Positions 14,392 to 28,082 of a stretch of 64,000 nucleotides of DNA are shown one piece after another. Position numbers and translations under genes: made by a program. Location: NCBI RefSeq assembly GCF_000015825.1, contig NC_009051.1, positions 558,001 to 622,000 of the forward strand, in the 5' to 3' direction. The notes beneath the pieces were generated by a model. It saw only the letters and a program-made list of their open reading frames with translations. It was not told where the DNA came from and did no database searches. Numbering within the stretch: the first letter of the stretch is position 1; every line of letters begins with the position of its first letter. Source of the DNA: Methanoculleus marisnigri JR1. Lineage in GTDB: Archaea; Halobacteriota; Methanomicrobia; Methanomicrobiales; Methanoculleaceae.

Positions 14392-15456
14392 CTACCTCTT
14401 CTGCAGGAGCAGGACGGCTGCGGATAATGCGCAGATGAGCGTGATCGCGCCGAACCCCGGTGATTGAACCGTCCCGGTCGGCTTCGGCGTGCCCGTCCCG
14501 GTGGTTTCCGGATGGAGGTGGCCCGCCACTTCTTCAAGCGCATCCACGATCCGCGGGCTCCCCCGGCTGACGACGTCGGCGTCGATGACGTAGACGCGGT
14601 CGTTCCTGACCGCATCGAGCCTCTGCAGGCGGGGCTCGTTGATGATGTAGTTGTAGATGGCGTCGTAGCCGTCCCGGTCCATCCCGCTGCCCGAACTGAC
14701 CAGGATGTAGTCGGGATTCGTGGTGATGAACGCCTCGAGGCTGACGATGCTCCAGCCGTCGACCGGGCCGAACGCATTGGTTCCGCCGGCAATCGTGATC
14801 ACCTCGTTCTGGAACGTTCCCTGCCCGCAGACCCAGAGCGGGTCGTGCCAGATGACGTGGGCGACGGACGGTTGTTCGGTCCGGCTCTCGGCCACCTCTC
14901 CGGCAACAACTCCCATGCGTGCCCGGAGTTCTTCGATGAGTCTCGAAGCCTCTTCTTCCTGCCCGGTTGCCCTTCCGGCAAGTTCGATGTCGTGCAGGAC
15001 ACCGTCGATCGTCTGCGGGTCGAGGGTGACGACGGTCATCCCGAGCGATCGCAGGCGGTCGATGACTTCGTCGGTGTTGGCGGGCGCGGCGAAGATCAGG
15101 TCGGGCTCCATAGCGATCACTTTCTCGATGTTGACGGTGCTAAAACCGCCTACCTTCGGCTTATCGGCTGTTGCCGGCGGATAGTCGCAGCGTTCGGTGA
15201 CGGCGACGATGCGGTCATCAAGCCCGAGGGCATACAGGATCTCGGTATTGGAAGGCGCGAGCGAGACGATTCTCTGCGGTGCTCCCCGGATGAGGACGGT
15301 CTTCCCGGAGTCGTCGGTCACCGCCACGGATCGTTCGCCGCCGTCCGCCGTTGCGAGCGGTTCTTCGAGAGGCACGGGTGTCGCACCGGCCGTCCCGGCG
15401 AGCAGGAGCAGCACGACAAGCGATGCAAGAGAGTGTATCAGGCGCGTGGTTTGCAT
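14392..15456 (-). CDS. btuF: Cobamide ABC transporter substrate-binding protein with PGF-CTERM anchor
   Basis: This encodes 354 residues from the ATG at 15456; a GTG at 15507 would add an unlikely N-terminus. The order is a signal segment (LASLVVLLLLAGTAGA, about 11-26), then a BtuF/FepB-type binding domain with QRIVSLAPSNTEILYALGLDDRIVAVTERCDYPP and VWHDPLWVCGQGTF-like loops. A Thr/Pro linker follows, then a C-terminal QSPGFGAITLICALSAAVLLLQKR-type tripartite tail. That Pro-Gly-Phe plus helix plus basic end is a PGF-CTERM archaeosortase signal. It is downstream of btuC-btuD, so the cargo is most likely a cobamide, though a siderophore is possible. Confidence 0.85.
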   Translation of the reverse strand: MQTTRLIHSLASLVVLLLLAGTAGATPVPLEEPLATADGGERSVAVTDDSGKTVLIRGAPQRIVSLAPSNTEILYALGLDDRIVAVTERCDYPPATADKPKVGGFSTVNIEKVIAMEPDLIFAAPANTDEVIDRLRSLGMTVVTLDPQTIDGVLHDIELAGRATGQEEEASRLIEELRARMGVVAGEVAESRTEQPSVAHVIWHDPLWVCGQGTFQNEVITIAGGTNAFGPVDGWSIVSLEAFITTNPDYILVSSGSGMDRDGYDAIYNYIINEPRLQRLDAVRNDRVYVIDADVVSRGSPRIVDALEEVAGHLHPETTGTGTPKPTGTVQSPGFGAITLICALSAAVLLLQKR

Positions 15457-15606
15457 TACTATAGTACACTTGCGTTGAGGTAATAATAACTTACAAATCG
15501 TGATCACGCTATGGCACTGAAGCGCCTGCCGATCGTGTGTTTCCCGTTCCCAAAACGATCCGGCGCATACCGGCGGGTTTGATGGCCGCAGGGTGCGGTC
15601 TGGGGT

Positions 15607-16863
15607 TCAATCGCGATCGGAGCCGTCCCGCGAGAGGCGGGCAAGAAGTTCCTCCGCCCCCTCGACCCGGAGCGCCCCGCGCGCCTCCAGGTTCGCCAGC
15701 ACCGCACCGGCTTCGCCCCCGGTGCAGTCTTCCATCCGGGTGGTATGGTCTCTTGCGTAGAAGACTACGGACTTTGCCGGATAGTCGAGCAGCACCCGGA
15801 GGTTGTCGAGGTTCCCCCTGCCGATCGGCATCGCCGTAACGATGACGGCGTCCGCGCTGTCCAGGCACTTCCTGAGGCCCGAGAGCGATTCCGGGGTGAT
15901 GCCGTGAAACGGGGGCTCTACGACGCAGGGAAGGCCGAGGTGCATGGCCGTCCCGTAGTCGGTGTCGAGGACGTTTAAGACGCCGCAGGTGACCGTGAAA
16001 CCCGCGGCGTGGAGCAGGTGGAGGATGTCGGAGCCCGTTCCCCCGCCGCAGACGACGTGCACCCGCCGGTTCGCTCCCGCACTCGACTGGTGCATGTATA
16101 CCGGCAGGACGTACGGTTTTCCCGTAAGCGGGTGCGGTTTGACGAGCATCTCCATCCCGAAGATCTCGCGGATGTTTTCACGGGTCAGGACCGCCCCGGG
16201 TGCTCCTGCGGCGTAGACCTTCCGGTCTTTGAGAAGCAGGAGCCGGTCGCAGTAGTATGCGGCCAGGTTCAGGTCGTGAAAGACGCTTACGACCGTGATC
16301 TCACCCGCGAGGTCCCTGATGATGTTGAGGATCTCGACCTGGTGGCTGACGTCGAGGTTCGAGGTTGCTTCGTCGAGCAGCAGGATCGTCGGTTCCTGCG
16401 CGAGCGCCCGCGCTATGAGCACGCGCTGGCGTTCCCCGCCGCTGATGTCGTGCACCGAGGCCCCGGCGAGAGCTGCGACGTTTGCAAGGTGCATGGCGTG
16501 GTCGCAGATCTTCACATCCCGGGCCGTCTCGGAGGCAAACCTTCCGATGTAGGGGTGCCTGCCCATCATGACGACGTCGCGCACCGTGTAGTCGAAGCCG
16601 ATCGAGATGTCCTGCGGAACGACCGCAACCCGGCGCGCAAGTTCGCGGTGCCCGAGCGAGTCGAGATCCCGGTCGTCAAGCAGGATCTCCCCGTTATCCC
16701 GGGCGACGACCCGGCTCATCGCTTTCAAAAGCGTCGTCTTTCCCGATCCGTTCGGCCCGACGATACCGAGGATCTCGCCTGCGTCCGCGTGGAACGTGAT
16801 GGCTTCGAGGATCTTCTTTGCGCCGTAGGAGACGTCGATATCGATGATTTCAATCGGTTTCAT
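15607..16863 (-). CDS. btuD: Cobamide ABC transporter ATPase with extra C-terminal domain
   Basis: This encodes 418 residues, versus about 250-260 for a normal BtuD/FepC ATPase. The ATPase domain has Walker A GPNGSGKTT (residues 36-44), a Q-loop VVPQD, signature SGGERQRV and Walker B ILLLDEATS. From about residue 265 an additional 150-residue domain begins RRVHVVCGGGTGSDILHLL and includes ADAVIVTAMPIGRGNLDNL. It looks like a small Rossmann-type domain. Its ATG overlaps the btuC stop (ATGA). The extra domain may sense or bind a nucleotide or ligand; its function is unknown. Confidence 0.88.
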   Translation of the reverse strand: MKPIEIIDIDVSYGAKKILEAITFHADAGEILGIVGPNGSGKTTLLKAMSRVVARDNGEILLDDRDLDSLGHRELARRVAVVPQDISIGFDYTVRDVVMMGRHPYIGRFASETARDVKICDHAMHLANVAALAGASVHDISGGERQRVLIARALAQEPTILLLDEATSNLDVSHQVEILNIIRDLAGEITVVSVFHDLNLAAYYCDRLLLLKDRKVYAAGAPGAVLTRENIREIFGMEMLVKPHPLTGKPYVLPVYMHQSSAGANRRVHVVCGGGTGSDILHLLHAAGFTVTCGVLNVLDTDYGTAMHLGLPCVVEPPFHGITPESLSGLRKCLDSADAVIVTAMPIGRGNLDNLRVLLDYPAKSVVFYARDHTTRMEDCTGGEAGAVLANLEARGALRVEGAEELLARLSRDGSDRD

Positions 16864-17810
16864 GCTTTCATCCGGCTCCGGAGGAGGTATATGAAGAACG
16901 GTGCGCCGAAGCAGGCGGTCAGGATACCGACCGGCATGTCGCTCGTGAAGGTTCGCGTGAGCGCATCCGCCCATACGAGGAGGATGGCGCCTGCAAGTGC
17001 GGCCGCGGGAAAGAGGAAACGGTGGTCGGGGCCGACGATCAGCCGCATCACGTGCGGAGTGATCAGGCCGATGAACCCGATTGAGCCGGCTACCGCAACG
17101 GCTATTCCCGTCACGAAGGCGCTCAGTGCGAGGAGGATCTGTTTCGCCCGCTCGACGTTCACCCCGAGGTGGGTTGCGTCCTCTTCGTTCAGGGCGAGGA
17201 TGTTGAGGTCGCGTGCGAAGAGATAGATCCCTGCGGCTCCGATCAGGATGAGAAGGGCGACGATGACGTCGTTCCACGATATGTTCCAGAATCCTCCCAT
17301 CAGCCAGAACATGATCTGGTGCAGGCTCCGTCCTGCGGTATACATGAGGAAGGAGAGGAGTGCCGACAGGAGCGTCGCGAGGGCGACACCGGAGAGCAGG
17401 AGCGTCTCGACCGGGATCTTGCCCCCTCTGCGGGCGATGAAGTATACGGTAAACGTTGCGATCATCGCCCCGGCGAATGCAAGCACGGTGCGTCCCGTAC
17501 CGGCAAAGAGGACGATTGCGAGGGTAGCCCCGAGCGCCCCGCCCGACGACGTGCCGATGATGTAGGGGTCGGCCATGGGGTTTCGGAACAGCGCCTGCAT
17601 GGCCGTGCCTGCCACGGCAAGCCCGCACCCTACCAGCGCCGCGGCGATCACCCTCGGCAGCCGGATCTCCCAGAGGATCATCCAGGCGTTGTCCGAGGTA
17701 AGCAGCGACCCCAGGGCAAGCCCGCTCGGTCCGAGAGCGACCGCGGAGGCCATGCTGATGAGGAGCGCGCAGATGAGTGTTGCGATGATGATCGGTGCCG
17801 TTCTCCGCAT
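16860..17810 (-). CDS. btuC: Cobamide ABC transporter permease BtuC
   Basis: This encodes a 316-residue permease of the FecCD/BtuC family with about nine or ten transmembrane helices. Family signatures are visible: the N-terminal LWEIRLPRVIAAALVGCGLAVAGTAMQALFRNPMADPYIIGTSSGG (about 45-90) and near the end GSIGFIGLITPHVMRLIVGPDHR. It is first of a three-gene import unit (btuC-btuD-btuF). Import of a corrinoid fits with the corrinoid enzyme operon mtr lying about 2 kb away. Confidence 0.9.
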   Translation of the reverse strand: MRRTAPIIIATLICALLISMASAVALGPSGLALGSLLTSDNAWMILWEIRLPRVIAAALVGCGLAVAGTAMQALFRNPMADPYIIGTSSGGALGATLAIVLFAGTGRTVLAFAGAMIATFTVYFIARRGGKIPVETLLLSGVALATLLSALLSFLMYTAGRSLHQIMFWLMGGFWNISWNDVIVALLILIGAAGIYLFARDLNILALNEEDATHLGVNVERAKQILLALSAFVTGIAVAVAGSIGFIGLITPHVMRLIVGPDHRFLFPAAALAGAILLVWADALTRTFTSDMPVGILTACFGAPFFIYLLRSRMKA

Positions 17811-19136: not shown

Positions 19137-20174
19137 TTAGATGAGCCTGAAGAGCGGGTGGGTGTCCACCTGGGGCTCGATGCCGAAGTCGCGTGCCGCT
19201 TCCAGCACGACGATGTCGGTGTAGGCCTGTGCGGTGATCATCGCCTCGACGTTCTCGATCGGGCCGTACATGATCAGGTCGGCACCGAGGGTGCTTGCAA
19301 TCATGTTGCAGCCGATATCGGGCGCAGACCAGGCCGCCTGGCGCAGACCGTCCGTACCACCGAGGTAGTGGTGCAGGAGCTGCTCAACGAGTCCTTCTTT
19401 GCCCTCGAGACCGGCAAGCTGCTGTGAGGGAGTCTTCTTCGTTCCCTTCCAGCGCTTCAGCCAGGTCCAGGAGACGGTCATGTTGTGGTAGGCACCGCCG
19501 GTCGGCAGGCCGTGGATCGCCTTGCAGGCGAGAATCTCACGGTACGAACCGCCGGAACCGAGACCGAGCGGGGTTGCCGCGGTGTCGAGGATCGGGCGGG
19601 TGATGCCGCACTTCTCCGCGATCTCGAGCATACCCATCTCCTGTCCCGCGACGCCGCCCTCGGTCAGGACCTTCTCGCGGCCGGCAACCGACGGGTCGCC
19701 GGGGTTGAAGGCAAGGACGATTGCTGCGTTCACGTCGCTCTTTGCCAGCGCCTCGATGTTCTCGGGCAGGATCGAGCCGTTGATCGAGTTGTAGATCGCA
19801 CGGTCCGCAATGCCGGCCTGGGTGACGTACTCGCACGCGTGGGCGAGCGCCGCCGGGACGGACGAGTCCATCAGGAACGCGGTCTTGTCATCGATGCTGC
19901 AGAACCAGTCGATGTAACTCTCGAAGGCCTCGCCGAACTCCCCGATGATCTGGATGAAGTGCGGAATGCCGGTGATATCCGAGAGTTCCTGGCAGCGGTT
20001 CCAGAGCGCCTCTGCCTTTTCCTTGTCAATCTTTCCAGTGTGGTCATCCAGTACAACTTCGTGCTTGTTGTAGAAGATGGATGCACCGAGCACGGTCGGG
20101 TATTCTCCAGGCTGCCCGCCGATTTTGGTACCGTTGAAGTCGTGTACCGTCTGCTCTTTTTCGAATTTGAACAT
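19137..20174 (-). CDS. mtrH: Tetrahydromethanopterin S-methyltransferase subunit H
   Basis: This encodes 345 residues from the ATG at 20174 (MFKFEKEQTVHDFNGTKIGGQPGEYPTVLG). MtrH is the soluble TIM-barrel subunit that moves the methyl group from methyl-tetrahydromethanopterin to the cobalt of the corrinoid on MtrA. Diagnostic segments include FNPGDPSVAGREKVL, LDTAATPLGLGSGGSYRE and SWTWLKRWKGTKKT. It is the last gene of the mtr operon, 15 bp after the fused mtrA-mtrG gene, with a GGAGG site upstream. Confidence 0.96.
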   Translation of the reverse strand: MFKFEKEQTVHDFNGTKIGGQPGEYPTVLGASIFYNKHEVVLDDHTGKIDKEKAEALWNRCQELSDITGIPHFIQIIGEFGEAFESYIDWFCSIDDKTAFLMDSSVPAALAHACEYVTQAGIADRAIYNSINGSILPENIEALAKSDVNAAIVLAFNPGDPSVAGREKVLTEGGVAGQEMGMLEIAEKCGITRPILDTAATPLGLGSGGSYREILACKAIHGLPTGGAYHNMTVSWTWLKRWKGTKKTPSQQLAGLEGKEGLVEQLLHHYLGGTDGLRQAAWSAPDIGCNMIASTLGADLIMYGPIENVEAMITAQAYTDIVVLEAARDFGIEPQVDTHPLFRLI

Positions 20175-20189
20175 ATTCGTCAATCCTCC

Positions 20190-20927
20190 TTACAGATACC
20201 CAATCAATTTGGGCAGTAATACCAACAACATCATGAATACAATCAAACCTGCGACCAGTCCGTACAGGATGCCGATATCGCGCCCGATCTTTCTTCCAAC
20301 ACGCTGGGCGATCTCGGCATCGACGAACTCGATCCGCTCCTCAATGGCGTTGAGCCGTTCCTCGATCTCAAGGAACTGCGGGTTTGCACCTGCAACGGCG
20401 ACTTCCGCCGCACCGCCTGCTTCCTTGACCTCGACGATCATGGGTTCCGCGCCGAAGGCACCTGGGTCTCTGGCCTTGAGCTCGTCGATCTTGGCCTTGA
20501 TGGCACCCATGTCCTCGCTTTCCATGATGTTGACGATCTCGATCTGTTCCTGGAAGCGGCTGATCGCATCGTCGGAGAGGTTCTCGATGAACGGGATTGC
20601 TCCCTGGGCGCCGACAATCTTTCCGCCGGAGACTCCGCCTTCGTGCAGGGCAATGAAGCTCTGCCCGGACAGATGTCCCTTGACCTCCGTACCGCAGCAG
20701 AGGATGAACCTGATGTTGGGGTTGGAGATGACGTTCGCGATGATCTTCTCAAGGCCGAGATTCTCGGTCTTGCAGGACCCGGCGATTGCCGCTCCGGCAT
20801 CGCAGATGCCCTGCTCGTCGAGGTGGGATCCCATGGTGACGACGCCGACGCAACTCTGTGCATCTCCCGTGTGGAAGTCGCCCTGAACAATCGGCCATCC
20901 GCTGGCCGGTGATTTCTTTTCAACCAT
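20190..20927 (-). CDS. MtrA corrinoid domain fused to MtrG
   Basis: This encodes 245 residues in the operon position of mtrG. Residues 1 to about 173 are the same as the cytoplasmic corrinoid domain of the neighbouring MtrA, including the cobalt-ligand His in VKGHLSGQS (His85). The remaining 70 residues are a typical Mtr[37 protein letters not shown] followed by one transmembrane helix. At DNA level the N-terminal part is a near-perfect copy of mtrA. The product would bring a second corrinoid domain to each Mtr protomer, anchored by the MtrG helix. MtrG elsewhere is only about 70-90 residues, so this is a real fusion. Its start lies one base after the mtrF stop. Confidence 0.92.
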
Positions 20928-20930
20928 GTT
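20407..20930 (-). repeat. Direct repeat, copy in mtrA-mtrG fusion
   Basis: This 524-bp segment matches 21346-21869 in the same orientation, offset 939 bp. By eye the only difference is 20427 (G) versus 21366 (A). It runs from three bases upstream of the ATG to codon 174. Sequence on both sides diverges at once. Confidence 0.95.
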
Positions 20931-21138
20931 AGATCGCCCCCAGCAGCAGTGCCGGAATCACAATCAGAAGCACGGCTACGATGAGCCCAATCGCGAATCC
21001 GAGGATCCCCATGCCCATGATGCCCGACTCAAGTTTGGTCGTGCGGGCAAGGATCTGTGCCTTGTACCGGATGGAGTCCATCATTCTGTTGATCGAGGTC
21101 ATCCGGATGGGGCCTGCCTGTGTAACTTCTTCTGCCAT
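20929..21138 (-). CDS. mtrF: Tetrahydromethanopterin S-methyltransferase subunit F
   Basis: This encodes 69 residues: a short cytoplasmic N-terminus ([32 protein letters not shown]) and one transmembrane helix at the C-terminus ([26 protein letters not shown]). The size, the single helix and the location between mtrA and mtrG match MtrF of the membrane-bound, sodium-pumping Mtr complex. Start 5 bp after the mtrA stop. Confidence 0.93.
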
Positions 21139-21143
21139 TTATC

Positions 21144-21866
21144 TCACCCCAGCAAGATGAACCCCAGAATCACGAACGAGACGATCAGGCCGATCATGAG
21201 ACCCTCGATCTTGCCCGAGTAGACACCGGCGGCAAACTTGTTGCGATAGCCTATGTCGGTGACCATCCGCTCGATGACTTTCATCCGTGCGTGTACCAGT
21301 GCCAGTTCGCCGGAGAGCGGCTGCACTTCACCGGTCGCTTCCTCTGCCGCACCGCCTGCTTCCTTAACCTCGACGATCATGGGTTCCGCGCCGAAGGCAC
21401 CTGGGTCTCTGGCCTTGAGCTCGTCGATCTTGGCCTTGATGGCACCCATGTCCTCGCTTTCCATGATGTTGACGATCTCGATCTGTTCCTGGAAGCGGCT
21501 GATCGCATCGTCGGAGAGGTTCTCGATGAACGGGATTGCTCCCTGGGCGCCGACAATCTTTCCGCCGGAGACTCCGCCTTCGTGCAGGGCAATGAAGCTC
21601 TGCCCGGACAGATGTCCCTTGACCTCCGTACCGCAGCAGAGGATGAACCTGATGTTGGGGTTGGAGATGACGTTCGCGATGATCTTCTCAAGGCCGAGAT
21701 TCTCGGTCTTGCAGGACCCGGCGATTGCCGCTCCGGCATCGCAGATGCCCTGCTCGTCGAGGTGGGATCCCATGGTGACGACGCCGACGCAACTCTGTGC
21801 ATCTCCCGTGTGGAAGTCGCCCTGAACAATCGGCCATCCGCTGGCCGGTGATTTCTTTTCAACCAT
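21144..21866 (-). CDS. mtrA: Tetrahydromethanopterin S-methyltransferase subunit A
   Basis: This encodes 240 residues. The ATG at 21866 is chosen because a GAGGTGA site lies 9 nt upstream; an in-frame GTG at 21878 would add MKKN. The cytoplasmic corrinoid domain (about 1-173) starts [19 protein letters not shown] and carries the cobalt-coordinating His in GHLSGQS (His85). A linker ([21 protein letters not shown]) and the segment [21 protein letters not shown] with a C-terminal membrane helix follow. It carries the methyl group between MtrH and coenzyme M via MtrE. The corrinoid domain is duplicated in the downstream gene. Confidence 0.96.
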
Positions 21867-21869
21867 GTT
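21346..21869 (-). repeat. Direct repeat, copy in mtrA
   Basis: This is the partner of 20407-20930 (524 bp, one visible mismatch). It covers the ATG and the whole corrinoid domain of mtrA but stops before the C-terminal membrane anchor. Confidence 0.95.
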
Positions 21870-21879
21870 CTTCTTCACC

Positions 21880-22164
21880 TCACAGCAGTCCTAATACGAC
21901 GACACCGGCAACCAGAAGGCCGATTGCCATGCCGTACCAGAATGCGGTCACGCCTCCGGCGACGTTGAGAACACCTTCCCTGTTCGGGAACGATGCCAGG
22001 AAGTTGCCCTCTCCGGAGAGCATGCCGACCAGGTCGTCGGTAATCTTCTCAAGTTCCGTCACCTGCTCGAGCACGGGGGTGTACGAGACACCGGCGGTGG
22101 TGACAATGCCGACCATCGGGTCGACGACCAGGCCGAACTCGGGCAGTACCTGAACGTATGCCAT
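21880..22164 (-). CDS. mtrB: Tetrahydromethanopterin S-methyltransferase subunit B
   Basis: This encodes 94 residues. The N-terminus [21 protein letters not shown] and the central [18 protein letters not shown], followed by one C-terminal helix ([20 protein letters not shown]), match MtrB. It lies between mtrC and mtrA in the standard order, abutting mtrC. Confidence 0.94.
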
Positions 22165-23016: not shown

Positions 23017-23868
23017 TTAGAATACCCCCACCAGTTCGAGCAGCGCAATCGCGAAGAAACCTGCAATGGCGGATGCCACGGCGGCTGCGATGATCGCTCT
23101 CGGGAACCGCTTGAACTTGGGGTCGTGCGGCCCTTCGATAGTACCGGTGATGTTGTATGCCGCAAGCACGGCGTTGATCAGGAACATAGCGACCGCGAAG
23201 ACGCCGGCAAGCGAGATTGCGACGGGCGCGATCTGCTCGACCGTGGCGTCCAGGATTACGGGCAGCTGTGCCTGGTAAACGTCGAGGAGCTCGAGGTAGA
23301 TGAGCGTGCCGCCGAGACCTCCGAGTGCGCCGCCGATGACGCCGCCGACCCAGGAGATGAACGGGAGGCCGTGCCCCTCGGTACCCTGGCTCTTGTACTC
23401 GGGGAAGGTGTCGCCCGTGATCGGGTCCTTGTCGACCTTACCGGATGCTGCCGGGATGCCCATGCCGAAGATGTAGATGACATTGACCATCGTACAGGTG
23501 ATCGCCATCAACAGTCCGCCGCCGACCGCACCGCCCGCGAGGGCGACTGCGAGTCCGAACGGAGCGGCCCATGCGCCGCCGAAGAGTCCGGCAAGGCCGG
23601 CACCGGCCGCGAGCATCGCGACACCGGTCGCGATACCGGGCGACTGTCCCATTGCAGCGGGGGCACCGCCGACCGGGACGAAGTGGACGCCGAATGCGAC
23701 CAGGACACCGCCGATGATGATGCCGACGAGGGCAAGCACTCCGGCCATCTGTACGAGGTAGTAGGCGAGTCCGAGCGCGACGATGATAAGAACGATGCTG
23801 AGGACGATGCCCATTGCCGTTGGGGGCTGGATGCCTCCTGTCTGTTTAGGTCCGCCGAGTGCGCTCAT
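23017..23868 (-). CDS. mtrD: Tetrahydromethanopterin S-methyltransferase subunit D
   Basis: This encodes a 283-residue membrane protein with multiple Gly/Ala-rich helices. Recognisable segments include VHFVPVGGAPAAMGQSPGIATGVAMLAAGAGLAGLFGG, TCTMVNVIYIFGMGIPAASGKVDKDPITGD and YKSQGTEGHGLPFISWVGG. The ATG overlaps the mtrE stop (ATGA), which points to coupled translation. Confidence 0.95.
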   Translation of the reverse strand: MSALGGPKQTGGIQPPTAMGIVLSIVLIIVALGLAYYLVQMAGVLALVGIIIGGVLVAFGVHFVPVGGAPAAMGQSPGIATGVAMLAAGAGLAGLFGGAWAAPFGLAVALAGGAVGGGLLMAITCTMVNVIYIFGMGIPAASGKVDKDPITGDTFPEYKSQGTEGHGLPFISWVGGVIGGALGGLGGTLIYLELLDVYQAQLPVILDATVEQIAPVAISLAGVFAVAMFLINAVLAAYNITGTIEGPHDPKFKRFPRAIIAAAVASAIAGFFAIALLELVGVF

Positions 23869-24770
23869 GACGATGCCTCCTCAGGAGCCTCGGGAGCCGT
23901 GTACGGGCCGAAGTTCTTCCTTGCCCAGACCTCGATGTAGCGGTCGATGATGGCAAAGATCAGGATAACGACGATACCGACGATGATCGGTCCCCAGATG
24001 TTGAGTTCTTCGAAGACCACGGTACGCCAGAGTTCGAAGAAGACGATCAGGCCAAAGCAAATACCCGACGCGGGGCCGCCGAGTTTGGCGCTGAAGAAAC
24101 CGTTGTCGAGCGAGTTCCGCTGGCCGGCCTCGGCGTAGCGGACGATGTTTCCGGACGCAGAGATCGGAACGCCTGCTCCGAACTTCTGCTCCTGGTACTG
24201 CCGCTCCTTTCCGTAGAACGGGTTACCGGTTGCAGATCCAGCCGCACCGAGTGCGATACCCCAGACGAGACCCAGAAGCGGGAGCGGGAAGGGGTGGCCG
24301 AGTGCGCTGATCATCAGGTGACACATCGCGACGGTGGTGAAGATTGCTACGAACGCGTGTGCCATGGTCACGGTCGTCATCGATTTCAGAATATCGATAT
24401 AGACCGGCTGTCCGAACTTGGCGAGACTTGCAGTACGGCCGAGGTATGCGGTAGTCGCATACACGCCCTGCACGAAGACCGCGAGAGCGCTCCCAAGCAC
24501 GATTGCAAGTATCGGGTTTATCTGCATCGCCATGAATGCCCAAGCAAGGCCTGCACCCAGAGCAACCCATAGGCCGTACGCGGGGGGTTCACCGGCAACT
24601 GCCTTGTTGAAGATGCGGTGAATATATCCCATCTGCGGAGCCAGCTGAACCTGCGAGTTCGGGTCACCCTGTGATCCGATATCAGATTCAGTGTCTTCCG
24701 CAGCGCCGGCGACGGTTGCAAGAGCACCTGCCAATGCGGTAATGCCGATGCCAAATACGATCTCTTCCAT
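23865..24770 (-). CDS. mtrE: Tetrahydromethanopterin S-methyltransferase subunit E
   Basis: This encodes a 301-residue membrane protein, first in the mtr operon. Signatures are IGSQGDPNSQVQLAPQMGYIHRIFNKAVAGEPPAYGLW (about 33-70), FGQPVYIDILKSMTTVTMAHAFVAI and GKERQYQEQKFGAGVPISASGNIVRYAEAGQRNS. MtrE takes part in transfer of the methyl group to coenzyme M and in the sodium path. A GGAGGAGG ribosome-binding site precedes the ATG. Confidence 0.96.
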   Translation of the reverse strand: MEEIVFGIGITALAGALATVAGAAEDTESDIGSQGDPNSQVQLAPQMGYIHRIFNKAVAGEPPAYGLWVALGAGLAWAFMAMQINPILAIVLGSALAVFVQGVYATTAYLGRTASLAKFGQPVYIDILKSMTTVTMAHAFVAIFTTVAMCHLMISALGHPFPLPLLGLVWGIALGAAGSATGNPFYGKERQYQEQKFGAGVPISASGNIVRYAEAGQRNSLDNGFFSAKLGGPASGICFGLIVFFELWRTVVFEELNIWGPIIVGIVVILIFAIIDRYIEVWARKNFGPYTAPEAPEEASS

Positions 24771-24964: not shown

Positions 24965-26671
24965 TTACCGGGCCGGGATGATGAGCGAACGCTCGCCGGC
25001 GGGCATGAACTCGCGGATGGCACCCTTCGCGAACTCGCGGCGGGGCTCGGCGAAGTCGAACTTCAGCGCCGGGTCGGCGAAGCAGATCTTCACCCGCGGG
25101 TCGAAAGACCACGCGTCGCCGCGCCCGTAGTGGGCACCGCCGACGATTGCAGCGTACTCGCCCTGGTGGCCGACGTTCATCGCGTAGTTCGGGTAGTTCG
25201 GGCCACGGACCTCGCCTATCGCGCCCTCGTCTCCACGGATGGAGAGAGTGTTCGCGGAACCGCACTGGTCCTGGAGGTCGTAGCCGAAGAAGCCGAGACG
25301 CGACCATCCGTCCTTGTGCAGGAGCATGCAGAGGTACCAGGCGTTCAGGCCGGCGTTGGAGTTTCCGGTTGCGATCGATGAAGAAAGACCGCAGGCGGCG
25401 GCAAGCACACCGGCACGCTGGGAACCGCCGAAGTGGTCCTCCATCATGGTCGGGTACTGCTCGTACTGCTCCATGCCGTTCAAGGCGACCTCGGTTGCGA
25501 TGTCGTTGACGGTATCGTAGGTCGGCTTGACCTTGTCGTCTGCGCTCGGGTTCTTCCAGTCGACCTTGTACTTGTCCTTGATGTAGTCCATACCGTAGTA
25601 GGTGAACTCATCGAGGATGTTGTCGGTGTAGGCCGCGGTTGCGTACTGGGTGAATCCGACACCGCCGGACATGTAGGAGCCGAGCCAGATCTGGTCGAAC
25701 AGCATGGTTCCGGCGCCGACGACCTCAAGGGAGGCCTTCGCGGGGTCGTTCGGGTACTTCCGGTTCGCCTGGACGATATCCGAGAAGAGACCGAATCCGA
25801 TACCACCGGGCTCGTTCGGGCCACGGGCACGCCGGGCGGGCAGGTGGGACGCCATCTGGATGACGCCTGCGTGCTTCGCGGCGTAGGAGAGGTCGGCGAC
25901 GGCCGCTTCTCCGGCGCACATACGGTAGGCACCGATGAAGGACATACCGATCTGCATCGCAGACCACCGGGAGGTCGTTCCACCGTCGCAGGTCCGGGAG
26001 ACCGTGGTCGGGATGTGGATCGCCTGCCAGAGGGACTTTCCTACGGCTGCGGAGAGCGCTTCGGCCTGCTTCGCCGGGAAGAGCTTCTCGACGTCGAGGA
26101 CGAACTGGGGCTCGAGGTCGTCGGCGAGTTCCTGGTCGCCGGTGAAGACCTTGACGTAACAGTCGTCGACGAGGCCGGGGTGAGTCTCGACCATGTGCTC
26201 CTGGACGACGGCCGCGCCGGGCATCGCGTGGTTCAGCACGTGGAGGTACTCGTTGATCGTCTCGGGGGTGACTTCCTTGCCGAGACGCTTCTGCAGGGTC
26301 TGGTGGGCGAGGTCCATGTTGACGATGACGGTCCTCCTGATATCGTCCCACATCTGCTGCATCGCAGCGTTGTTGACGAAGTGCAGGTCGTCACCCTCGA
26401 CGAAGACGCCGGTGCCGGAGACCTCATAGGTCATCAGCTGGCGCTGGCCGAGCGGGATACCGCCCAGGTGGCAGCGTACGGGGTCGTACATGGAGATGCC
26501 GCGGTCCATCTCGACGGCACGGCTTGCCTTCACGAACTCCTCCTTGCGGGGAGACTGGTGGTAGCCGTTGAACTTGTAGAATTCGGTCGTCTCGGACTCG
26601 ACATCCTGGCCCTGGAACTTCTCCTTGAGGGATTTCAGGAACAGCTTCTGGGTTCTCTCAATCTTTGCCAT
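24965..26671 (-). CDS. mcrA: Methyl-coenzyme M reductase subunit alpha
   Basis: This encodes 568 residues of the catalytic alpha subunit that releases methane from methyl-CoM and CoB using factor F430. Sites of the known post-translational modifications are conserved: the N-methyl-His region [18 protein letters not shown] (also holding the methyl-Arg), the thioglycine site in [11 protein letters not shown] and the adjacent Cys in [22 protein letters not shown] and the mcrA marker region [15 protein letters not shown] are present. It is the last gene of mcrBDCGA, five bases after mcrG. Confidence 0.98.
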
Positions 26672-26676
26672 CGTAA

Positions 26677-27441
26677 TCAGGCCTCCTTGGGTAGGAACCC
26701 GTATTTCGTCCGCAGCGTGTGGATGCGCTGGACGTACTCGATGTACTCCTTGTCGTCACGGTAGGCACTGCCGCCGAGCGAGTGGAAGATCGTCGTGTGG
26801 GCCTTGAGCCACTTCTCGTCGAGCGGCTTGCCGACGGCAACCGCACGGTCGAGGGGCTCGCCGATCTGGTTCTTGACGTAGCGGACGATGCCGTCCTCGC
26901 CAAGGACGCTCCTCTGGAGCATATCGAACATCATGCCGTTCTCGGCAAGACGGAGCGAGTGACCGTGCACGGTCGCGCCGCGGATGCCGGTACGGGCCGG
27001 GTCGAGGAGTTCGGTCTCGATGAGTTCCTTCGAGTACTTCTCGAGGTCGCGCTCGCGGCACTCGACGATCTGACGGCCGGAGAGCGTACCGGGGTCGATA
27101 CCGCGGAAGCGGTAGCACTCGGTGTAAGTCCTCTGGTAGGGCTGCGAGGGGGCGAAGAACATCGAGTCCGCAAACTGGATGTAGCGGACGCGGTCGCCGG
27201 CCTTGGCACCCTCCGTCGGGGTTACGATCTTCCTGATGGGACAGTCGGGCTCCTGCTGCTCGGCGAGCGGCGGGTGGGCCGTCGGATAGGCGGCTCCCGG
27301 CGCCCTGTGGCCGAGGATAAGTACGATGTCCTCATCAGTCACATCACGCATTTTCTCAAGCTTCTGGTTGGGGTCCATCTGCTTGCGCCGGTTTGCGGCG
27401 ACCTTGGATGTACCCGGTCCGTATTGGGGCTTGTATGCCAT
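26677..27441 (-). CDS. mcrG: Methyl-coenzyme M reductase subunit gamma
   Basis: This encodes 254 residues from the ATG at 27441 ([24 protein letters not shown]). Further conserved segments are [49 protein letters not shown] and [21 protein letters not shown]. The gamma subunit lines the F430 pocket with alpha and beta. An upstream in-frame ATG (27462) would add MNEVKEN; the chosen start follows a GGTGAAAG site. Confidence 0.97.
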
Positions 27442-27458
27442 GTTTTCTTTCACCTCAT

Positions 27459-28082
27459 TCATGTTGGGCTTTTTAGCACTTTCATAACGGCACGAATGAC
27501 CTCTGCCAATTTTTCCCTGCCCGGTGTCTGACCCCTTGTCACGCCGCTGACGATATCCATCACGATGCCTTTCGTCTTCGTCCGGTCGGGCGGCGGCATA
27601 ACCGCTGCGGTCCTGACCCCCTCTTTTGCGAGATCCTCGAAGTCGATCGGAACCTGGGATACGACGATGGCCCTGATGTCTGTGTGCTCAAGGATAAACC
27701 GGACTTTCTGCACCACATGGGAGCGAACGTTCCCATGATGCAGGATGGCTACCTTGTGCTGCTCGATCTGGGCGATCTCTTTCTCCGTCAGCCCGAAATA
27801 GGCTCCGAGAACGTGACCCGCGACGGGCGAATCCGCCGGAACCCCGCTTCCTGCGTTGAGGACGAGCGTGGTCACGGAGAACTCCGCCCCCTCCCTCCGG
27901 AGACCGGAGGTGATGTCGCAGACCGGTTTCGTCACGTGCCTGCGGCCGGGGGACATTCCAATCACGATCACATCCGGGGACCTGGTCTCGGAGATGGTGC
28001 CCCGCTGGGCAAGACCGCCTCCTTTTCCCATCCCCATGCTCTCGCGGCAATCGACAACCTGGGTTACTCTTCCGATTGGCAT
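27459..28082 (-). CDS. mcrC: Methyl-coenzyme M reductase operon protein C
   Basis: This encodes 207 residues, matching McrC in place and sequence (MPIGRVTQVVDCRESMGMGKGGGLAQRGTISE and GMSPGRRHVTKPVCDITSG). McrC belongs to the ATP-dependent activation machinery that reduces the nickel of F430. It lies between mcrD and mcrG with two-base spacing to mcrD. Confidence 0.94.
   Translation of the reverse strand: MPIGRVTQVVDCRESMGMGKGGGLAQRGTISETRSPDVIVIGMSPGRRHVTKPVCDITSGLRREGAEFSVTTLVLNAGSGVPADSPVAGHVLGAYFGLTEKEIAQIEQHKVAILHHGNVRSHVVQKVRFILEHTDIRAIVVSQVPIDFEDLAKEGVRTAAVMPPPDRTKTKGIVMDIVSGVTRGQTPGREKLAEVIRAVMKVLKSPT

Follow-up and report, generated by a model that had tools for sequence, protein, structure and literature searches.

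Near-identical corrinoid domains in the mtr operon of Methanoculleus marisnigri JR1 and their probable homogenisation by gene conversion

Background

The mtr operon of Methanoculleus marisnigri JR1 encodes the MtrA corrinoid domain twice, once in mtrA and once in an in-frame fusion of mtrA to mtrG, and the two copies are separated by a single base difference. How two genes that share nothing else come to carry almost the same 524 bp is the question addressed here. A preliminary description of this DNA had offered two readings, either a very young duplication or older copies kept alike by gene conversion, the second being taken to imply selection for identical corrinoid domains.

Mtr represents the sole energy-conserving step of hydrogenotrophic methanogenesis (PMC12774963), and published structures of the complex portray the MtrA corrinoid domain as a shuttle that moves between MtrH and the MtrCDE pump (PMC10998594). 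The combination of an mtrA-1 gene with an mtrA-G fusion has been described in Methanomicrobiales by Wang et al. (2015), alongside mtrA-F fusions in Methanococcales, and the same study showed that gene conversion homogenises the MtrA domains, with M. marisnigri JR1 named in the data set of its Figure 2 (PMC4632066). Similarly, mtrA has been listed among the long-lasting cases of concerted evolution (PMC6053082). Both the arrangement and its gene conversion have therefore been known since 2015, JR1 included, and the locus described here differs in no respect of kind from the published mtrA-1/mtrA-2b pair, sharing its operon, fusion and conversion (PMC4632066). The present analysis adds a comparison of 79 genomes, the lapse of conversion in some genera, the location of partial tracts and one tract in which the fused copy has overwritten the other.

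Organisation of the mtr operon

The window, that is, the whole stretch of 64,000 nucleotides of contig NC_009051.1 that was analysed, holds the operon on its minus strand in the transcribed order mtrEDCB-A1-F-[A2-G]-H, where A1 and A2 are the corrinoid domain copies of mtrA-1 and of the fusion, and mtrD, mtrE and mtrF are assigned by position and the published order. The mtrA-G fusion sits between mtrF, recognised by position and translation, and mtrH, with an ordinary mtrA-1 upstream.

23865 to 24770, minus strand: mtrE, by position in the mtrEDCB order; ORF of 301 aa
23017 to 23868, minus strand: mtrD, by position in the mtrEDCB order; ORF of 283 aa
22165 to 23016, minus strand: mtrC (PF04211)
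21880 to 22164, minus strand: mtrB (PF05440; TIGR04166 above cut-off)
21144 to 21866, minus strand: mtrA-1, 240 aa, corrinoid domain with its own C-terminal anchor helix (PF04208; TIGR01111 above cut-off)
21346 to 21869, minus strand: mtrA-1 copy of the repeat, covering codons 1-174 of the corrinoid domain and 3 bp 5' of the ATG
20929 to 21138, minus strand: mtrF, 69 aa, between the two repeat copies (from its translation, its place in the operon and the published order of genes, PMC4632066)
20190 to 20927, minus strand: mtrA-2/mtrG fusion, 245 aa (PF04208 and PF04210; TIGR01149 above cut-off)
20407 to 20930, minus strand: repeat copy in the mtrA-mtrG fusion, corrinoid domain
19137 to 20183, minus strand: mtrH, TIM-barrel methyltransferase loading the corrinoid (PF02007; TIGR01114 above cut-off)

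The start of mtrA-1 was placed at the ATG at 21866, the GTG at 21878 given in the ORF list being judged less likely. Upstream of mtrE, ORFs at window positions 24965-28082 (minus strand) resemble an mcr operon by eye, with the alpha subunit at 24965-26671, such that mcr and mtr would lie head to tail. A further group of minus-strand ORFs near this corrinoid enzyme operon, at 14392-17810, resembles by eye a metal-chelate or cobalamin-type ABC transporter comprising binding protein, permease and ATPase.

Extent and authenticity of the repeat

Letter comparison upheld the report of a direct repeat of 524 bp with one visible mismatch: the copies, at an offset of 939, differ only where 20427 is G and 21366 is A, a synonymous change at the third position of Val codon 167, giving 1.0 synonymous and no nonsynonymous differences across 172 codons. 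Chance is no explanation for such similarity. Each copy extends from 3 bp 5' of the ATG to approximately codon 174; lengthening the repeat by 3 bp, to 527 bp, raises the number of mismatches to two, and identity drops immediately to background beyond the edges on both sides, as the earlier remark on unrelated flanks had indicated. The repeat had also been said to run exactly from the translation start to the end of the corrinoid domain, and this holds give or take a few bases, the Pfam MtrA match covering residues 4-173. These were the sole two places found when the whole M. marisnigri JR1 genome was searched for a third copy.

Repeats of this sort can be collapsed or falsely expanded in assembly, and assemblers do have trouble here: drafts of related genomes have contig ends inside the repeat (G012, G015, G022, G024, G025, G031 and others), and a run of N lies within it in locus L042. 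For JR1, such an artefact is nevertheless vanishingly improbable. Its genome, a single contig of 2,478,101 bp, was taken to finished quality using Sanger libraries of 3, 6 and 40 kb, with less than one error per 50 kb (PMC3035220), and clones from each of these libraries exceed the 1.46 kb overall span of the repeat pair, making misassembly unlikely; furthermore, the copies differ in their flanks and at one base, and the same two places are present in other one-contig genomes. The run of N in L042, at 2466-2829, is a scaffold gap in a draft Methanoculleus genome and falls exactly within its mtrA-1 copy of the repeat. In G009, an apparent truncation of mtrA-1 was rejected, a scaffold gap of N being present instead. 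As many drafts end contigs inside the repeat, the copy number of mtrA is easily misjudged in MAGs.

The fusion protein

The fusion ORF contains PF04208 at residues 4-173 followed in frame by PF04210 at 183-236, and can be divided into a corrinoid domain (1-170), a disordered linker (170-182) and the MtrG helix (183-244). The MtrA and MtrG parts of the fusion align to the corresponding chains of the Mtr complexes from Methanothermobacter marburgensis (8Q3V) and from Methanosarcina mazei (9QTQ), the phmmer matches in the former being 8q3v_A and 8q3v_G. The best of five AlphaFold models, which varied in quality, has a mean pLDDT of 77.5 and comprises a folded corrinoid domain, a disordered linker with pLDDT < 50 and a single long helix spanning 183-244; with Foldseek, this model matches the MtrA crystal structures 5l8x and 5laa (TMt 0.92 to 5l8x_A).

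Comparison of the two copies in 58 genomes revealed that the cobalt-ligand histidine, position 85 here and equivalent to HisA84 in PMC10998594, is present in both throughout. The contact residues next to it likewise agree between the two copies. Across the same genomes, 96 of 172 residues never differ between the copies, the segments with modelled contacts to MtrH and MtrCDE are either invariant or vary alike in both, and no residue difference between A1 and A2 was found to be consistent across the order. On the basis of these sequences and the model, both corrinoid copies should work.

Age of the fusion

Matches were found in 130 of 135 Methanomicrobiales genomes of at least 90% completeness, representing 28 of 28 genera, typically at two places. 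In a survey of the phylum, mtrG lay within fusion frames of 244-319 aa in Methanomicrobiales among the matches listed, or in shorter ones where the gene is cut off by a contig end, and among those listed from outside the order it was a free gene of approximately 73-143 aa. Among 27 fusions taken from across the order, the junction residues A179, P183, Q184, F185, E187 and E189 are invariant, a pattern that points to a single ancient fusion event. The duplication and fusion that gave rise to mtrA-G thus appear to be older than the order Methanomicrobiales.

An identical pair considered alone fits a young duplication as well as it fits recent conversion, and the single difference in 524 bp could mean that the copies arose very recently in M. 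marisnigri and have lacked time to diverge. The presence of a fusion with the same junction residues and operon position across the order makes this highly improbable, as dozens of independent, identical duplications and fusions would be demanded; nor would partial mosaic tracts, described below, be expected. The young duplication suggested in the preliminary description is consequently wrong.

Gene conversion between the copies

Both copies were extracted from 80 Methanomicrobiales genomes, of which 79 were usable. When 117 domains were placed in a DNA tree, the copies mostly paired by genome, with the copy label switching 55 times, and a single A1 clade was rejected by an AU test covering Methanoculleus and its sister genus (p-AU 0.0002). 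Likewise, 49 of 59 genomes have a lower dS (calculated by NG86) between their paralogues than to the nearest orthologue, median values within Methanoculleus being 0.045 between paralogues versus 0.339 between species. The comparison of copies in related species therefore bears out the gene conversion that had been put forward alongside young duplication, with an old fusion and yet copies that are closer within than between genomes in most lineages.

Strong purifying selection in the absence of exchange, whether on the protein or on the DNA or RNA sequence, might be considered sufficient given how highly conserved the protein is, as judged from the positions that never differ between copies. 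We give this virtually no credence, since it is synonymous sites that are near-equal within genomes while diverging freely between species, and since the paralogues of Methanospirillum have reached dS values of 0.8-1.4.

Partial mosaic tracts with sharp edges show gene conversion directly. Mean codon identity between the copies is approximately 0.8-0.9 along the domain and at background beyond residue 171, and identical runs of codons lie beside diverged stretches in a number of genomes: 68 codons in G131 and G132, 96 in G056, 77 in G128 and 37 in G111, with P values from simple shuffles of about 0.0005-0.001 that are nominal for each genome and uncorrected for the number of genomes. The copies in G037 (L077) are identical over a 96 bp patch at codons 77-108, covering the region of the cobalt-ligand histidine, and approximately 21% different elsewhere; those of its sister G092 (L076) have 12 differences within the same patch. 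Here the A1 of G037 has 4 differences in 96 positions to the A2 of G092 and 11 in 96 to its A1, and so in this patch A1 has been overwritten by A2. Whereas mtrA-2 has been described as overwritten by mtrA-1 (PMC4632066), conversion may hence occur in both directions, from A1 to A2 and from A2 to A1.

Lapsed conversion and the question of identity

In all seven genomes of the Methanospirillum group (g28), the copies cluster by copy type, with paralogue dS of 0.78-1.44, and two genomes of genus g4 have values of 0.93-1.20, in a range where NG86 estimates become imprecise as they near 1. In genus g21, which includes M. petrolearius, paralogue dS is 0.46-0.53 versus 0.08-0.10 between species. Clustering by copy type, or divergence exceeding that between species, in these three groups indicates that conversion is neither universal nor obligatory, and it has lapsed in Methanospirillum and at least one other genus. 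At the g28 loci L085, L088, L089 and L091-L094, A1 and A2 evolve as separate lineages. Free divergence of the copies in relatives, which the preliminary description had held to speak against continuing exchange, is thus encountered in Methanospirillum and g4, and is absent from most lineages, where copies pair by genome.

Across 21 genera, the copies are more diverged where GC3 is low (Spearman -0.82 for GC3 of the domain and -0.78 for that of neighbouring genes); phylogenetic contrasts gave no support for a relationship between GC3 and copy divergence (r = -0.19, p = 0.10). GC-biased conversion was set aside as unproven, there being no GC3 excess in the domain tied to it.

It has been proposed that direct selection for identical domains maintains conversion, because all other Mtr subunits must fit both copies (PMC4632066). 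Homogenisation does recur in most genera, and it extends to the mtrA-mtrF fusions that three genomes, out of four sampled from a family taken as Methanocellales, were found to carry (L111, L112 and L113, in G156, G171 and G177), in which the mtrA-F domain is 99.6-100% identical to mtrA-1 within genomes and 77-84% identical between them; in the remaining genome, G164 (L114), an mtrA of this kind is present once. However, Methanospirillum, g4 and others persist with copies that are only 80-84% identical, and at matched dS of 0.7-1.0 the median dN of paralogues (0.072) resembles the value for same-genus orthologues (0.064), a level indicative of ordinary constraint on each copy with no detectable extra constraint for likeness. 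Selection for identity, which the preliminary description had regarded as implied by conversion, is therefore unsupported and seems rather unlikely; identity seems to be a by-product of conversion and of purifying selection on each copy, with function alone being required.

Discussion

These results are best explained by an ancient duplication, continuing conversion and purifying selection, together with a putative two-carrier function, a reading to which we assign a probability of roughly 0.93; the same conclusion has been reached independently in print (PMC4632066, PMC6053082). The duplication would have placed a second MtrA corrinoid domain before mtrG in the ancestor of Methanomicrobiales. 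Thereafter, in most descendants including JR1, intragenomic conversion between copies approximately 0.9 kb apart in one operon would rewrite one with the other, halting at the start codon and the linker because it acts only where homology exists. The corrinoid domains would thereby be left near-identical and the membrane anchors, the MtrA helix and the MtrG helix, distinct. Purifying selection on each copy probably completes the picture, with identity as such dispensable.

Related arrangements are known. The mtrA-2a genes (mtrA-F) of Methanococcales and Methanocella arvoryzae likewise carry an additional corrinoid domain on a different stalk helix and are homogenised within the genome, differing in being fused to mtrF rather than mtrG and, according to the same authors, in their independent origin (PMC4632066). 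In that study the Methanocellales fusion was known from one species. Concertedly evolving prokaryotic paralogues such as tuf are also subject to long-lasting homogenisation by conversion (PMC6053082). Unlike these, the mtrA pair has one domain per gene homogenised, because the remainder of the two genes is not homologous.

By analogy with the published complexes, the most likely function of the arrangement is to provide two tethered corrinoid arms per Mtr protomer, not one. The carriers, flexibly tethered to the MtrA helix and the MtrG helix, would both be able to pick up methyl groups at MtrH and deliver them to the MtrCDE Na+ pump. The 8Q3V and 9QTQ complexes have one corrinoid domain per protomer, as against the two encoded here, and published Mtr structures come from species without the mtrA-G fusion (PMC10998594, PMC12774963). 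The MtrH dimer has two active sites facing in opposite directions, of which the outer is thought unlikely to be reached, and in M. mazei the membrane-near site alone is thought to be served (PMC12774963). We tentatively raise the possibility, which we hold to be somewhat less than even, that two swinging arms per protomer, and hence six per trimer, match both sites of the MtrH dimer in Methanomicrobiales, with the same layout achieved through MtrF in Methanococcales and Methanocellales.

The doubled corrinoid domain would represent a natural change in the stoichiometry of Mtr that has been reached more than once, and the repeat provides a clean example of conversion restricted to a single domain. 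Lineages in which conversion has lapsed suggest that identity is dispensable, and it is there that the function of each copy may be separately testable.
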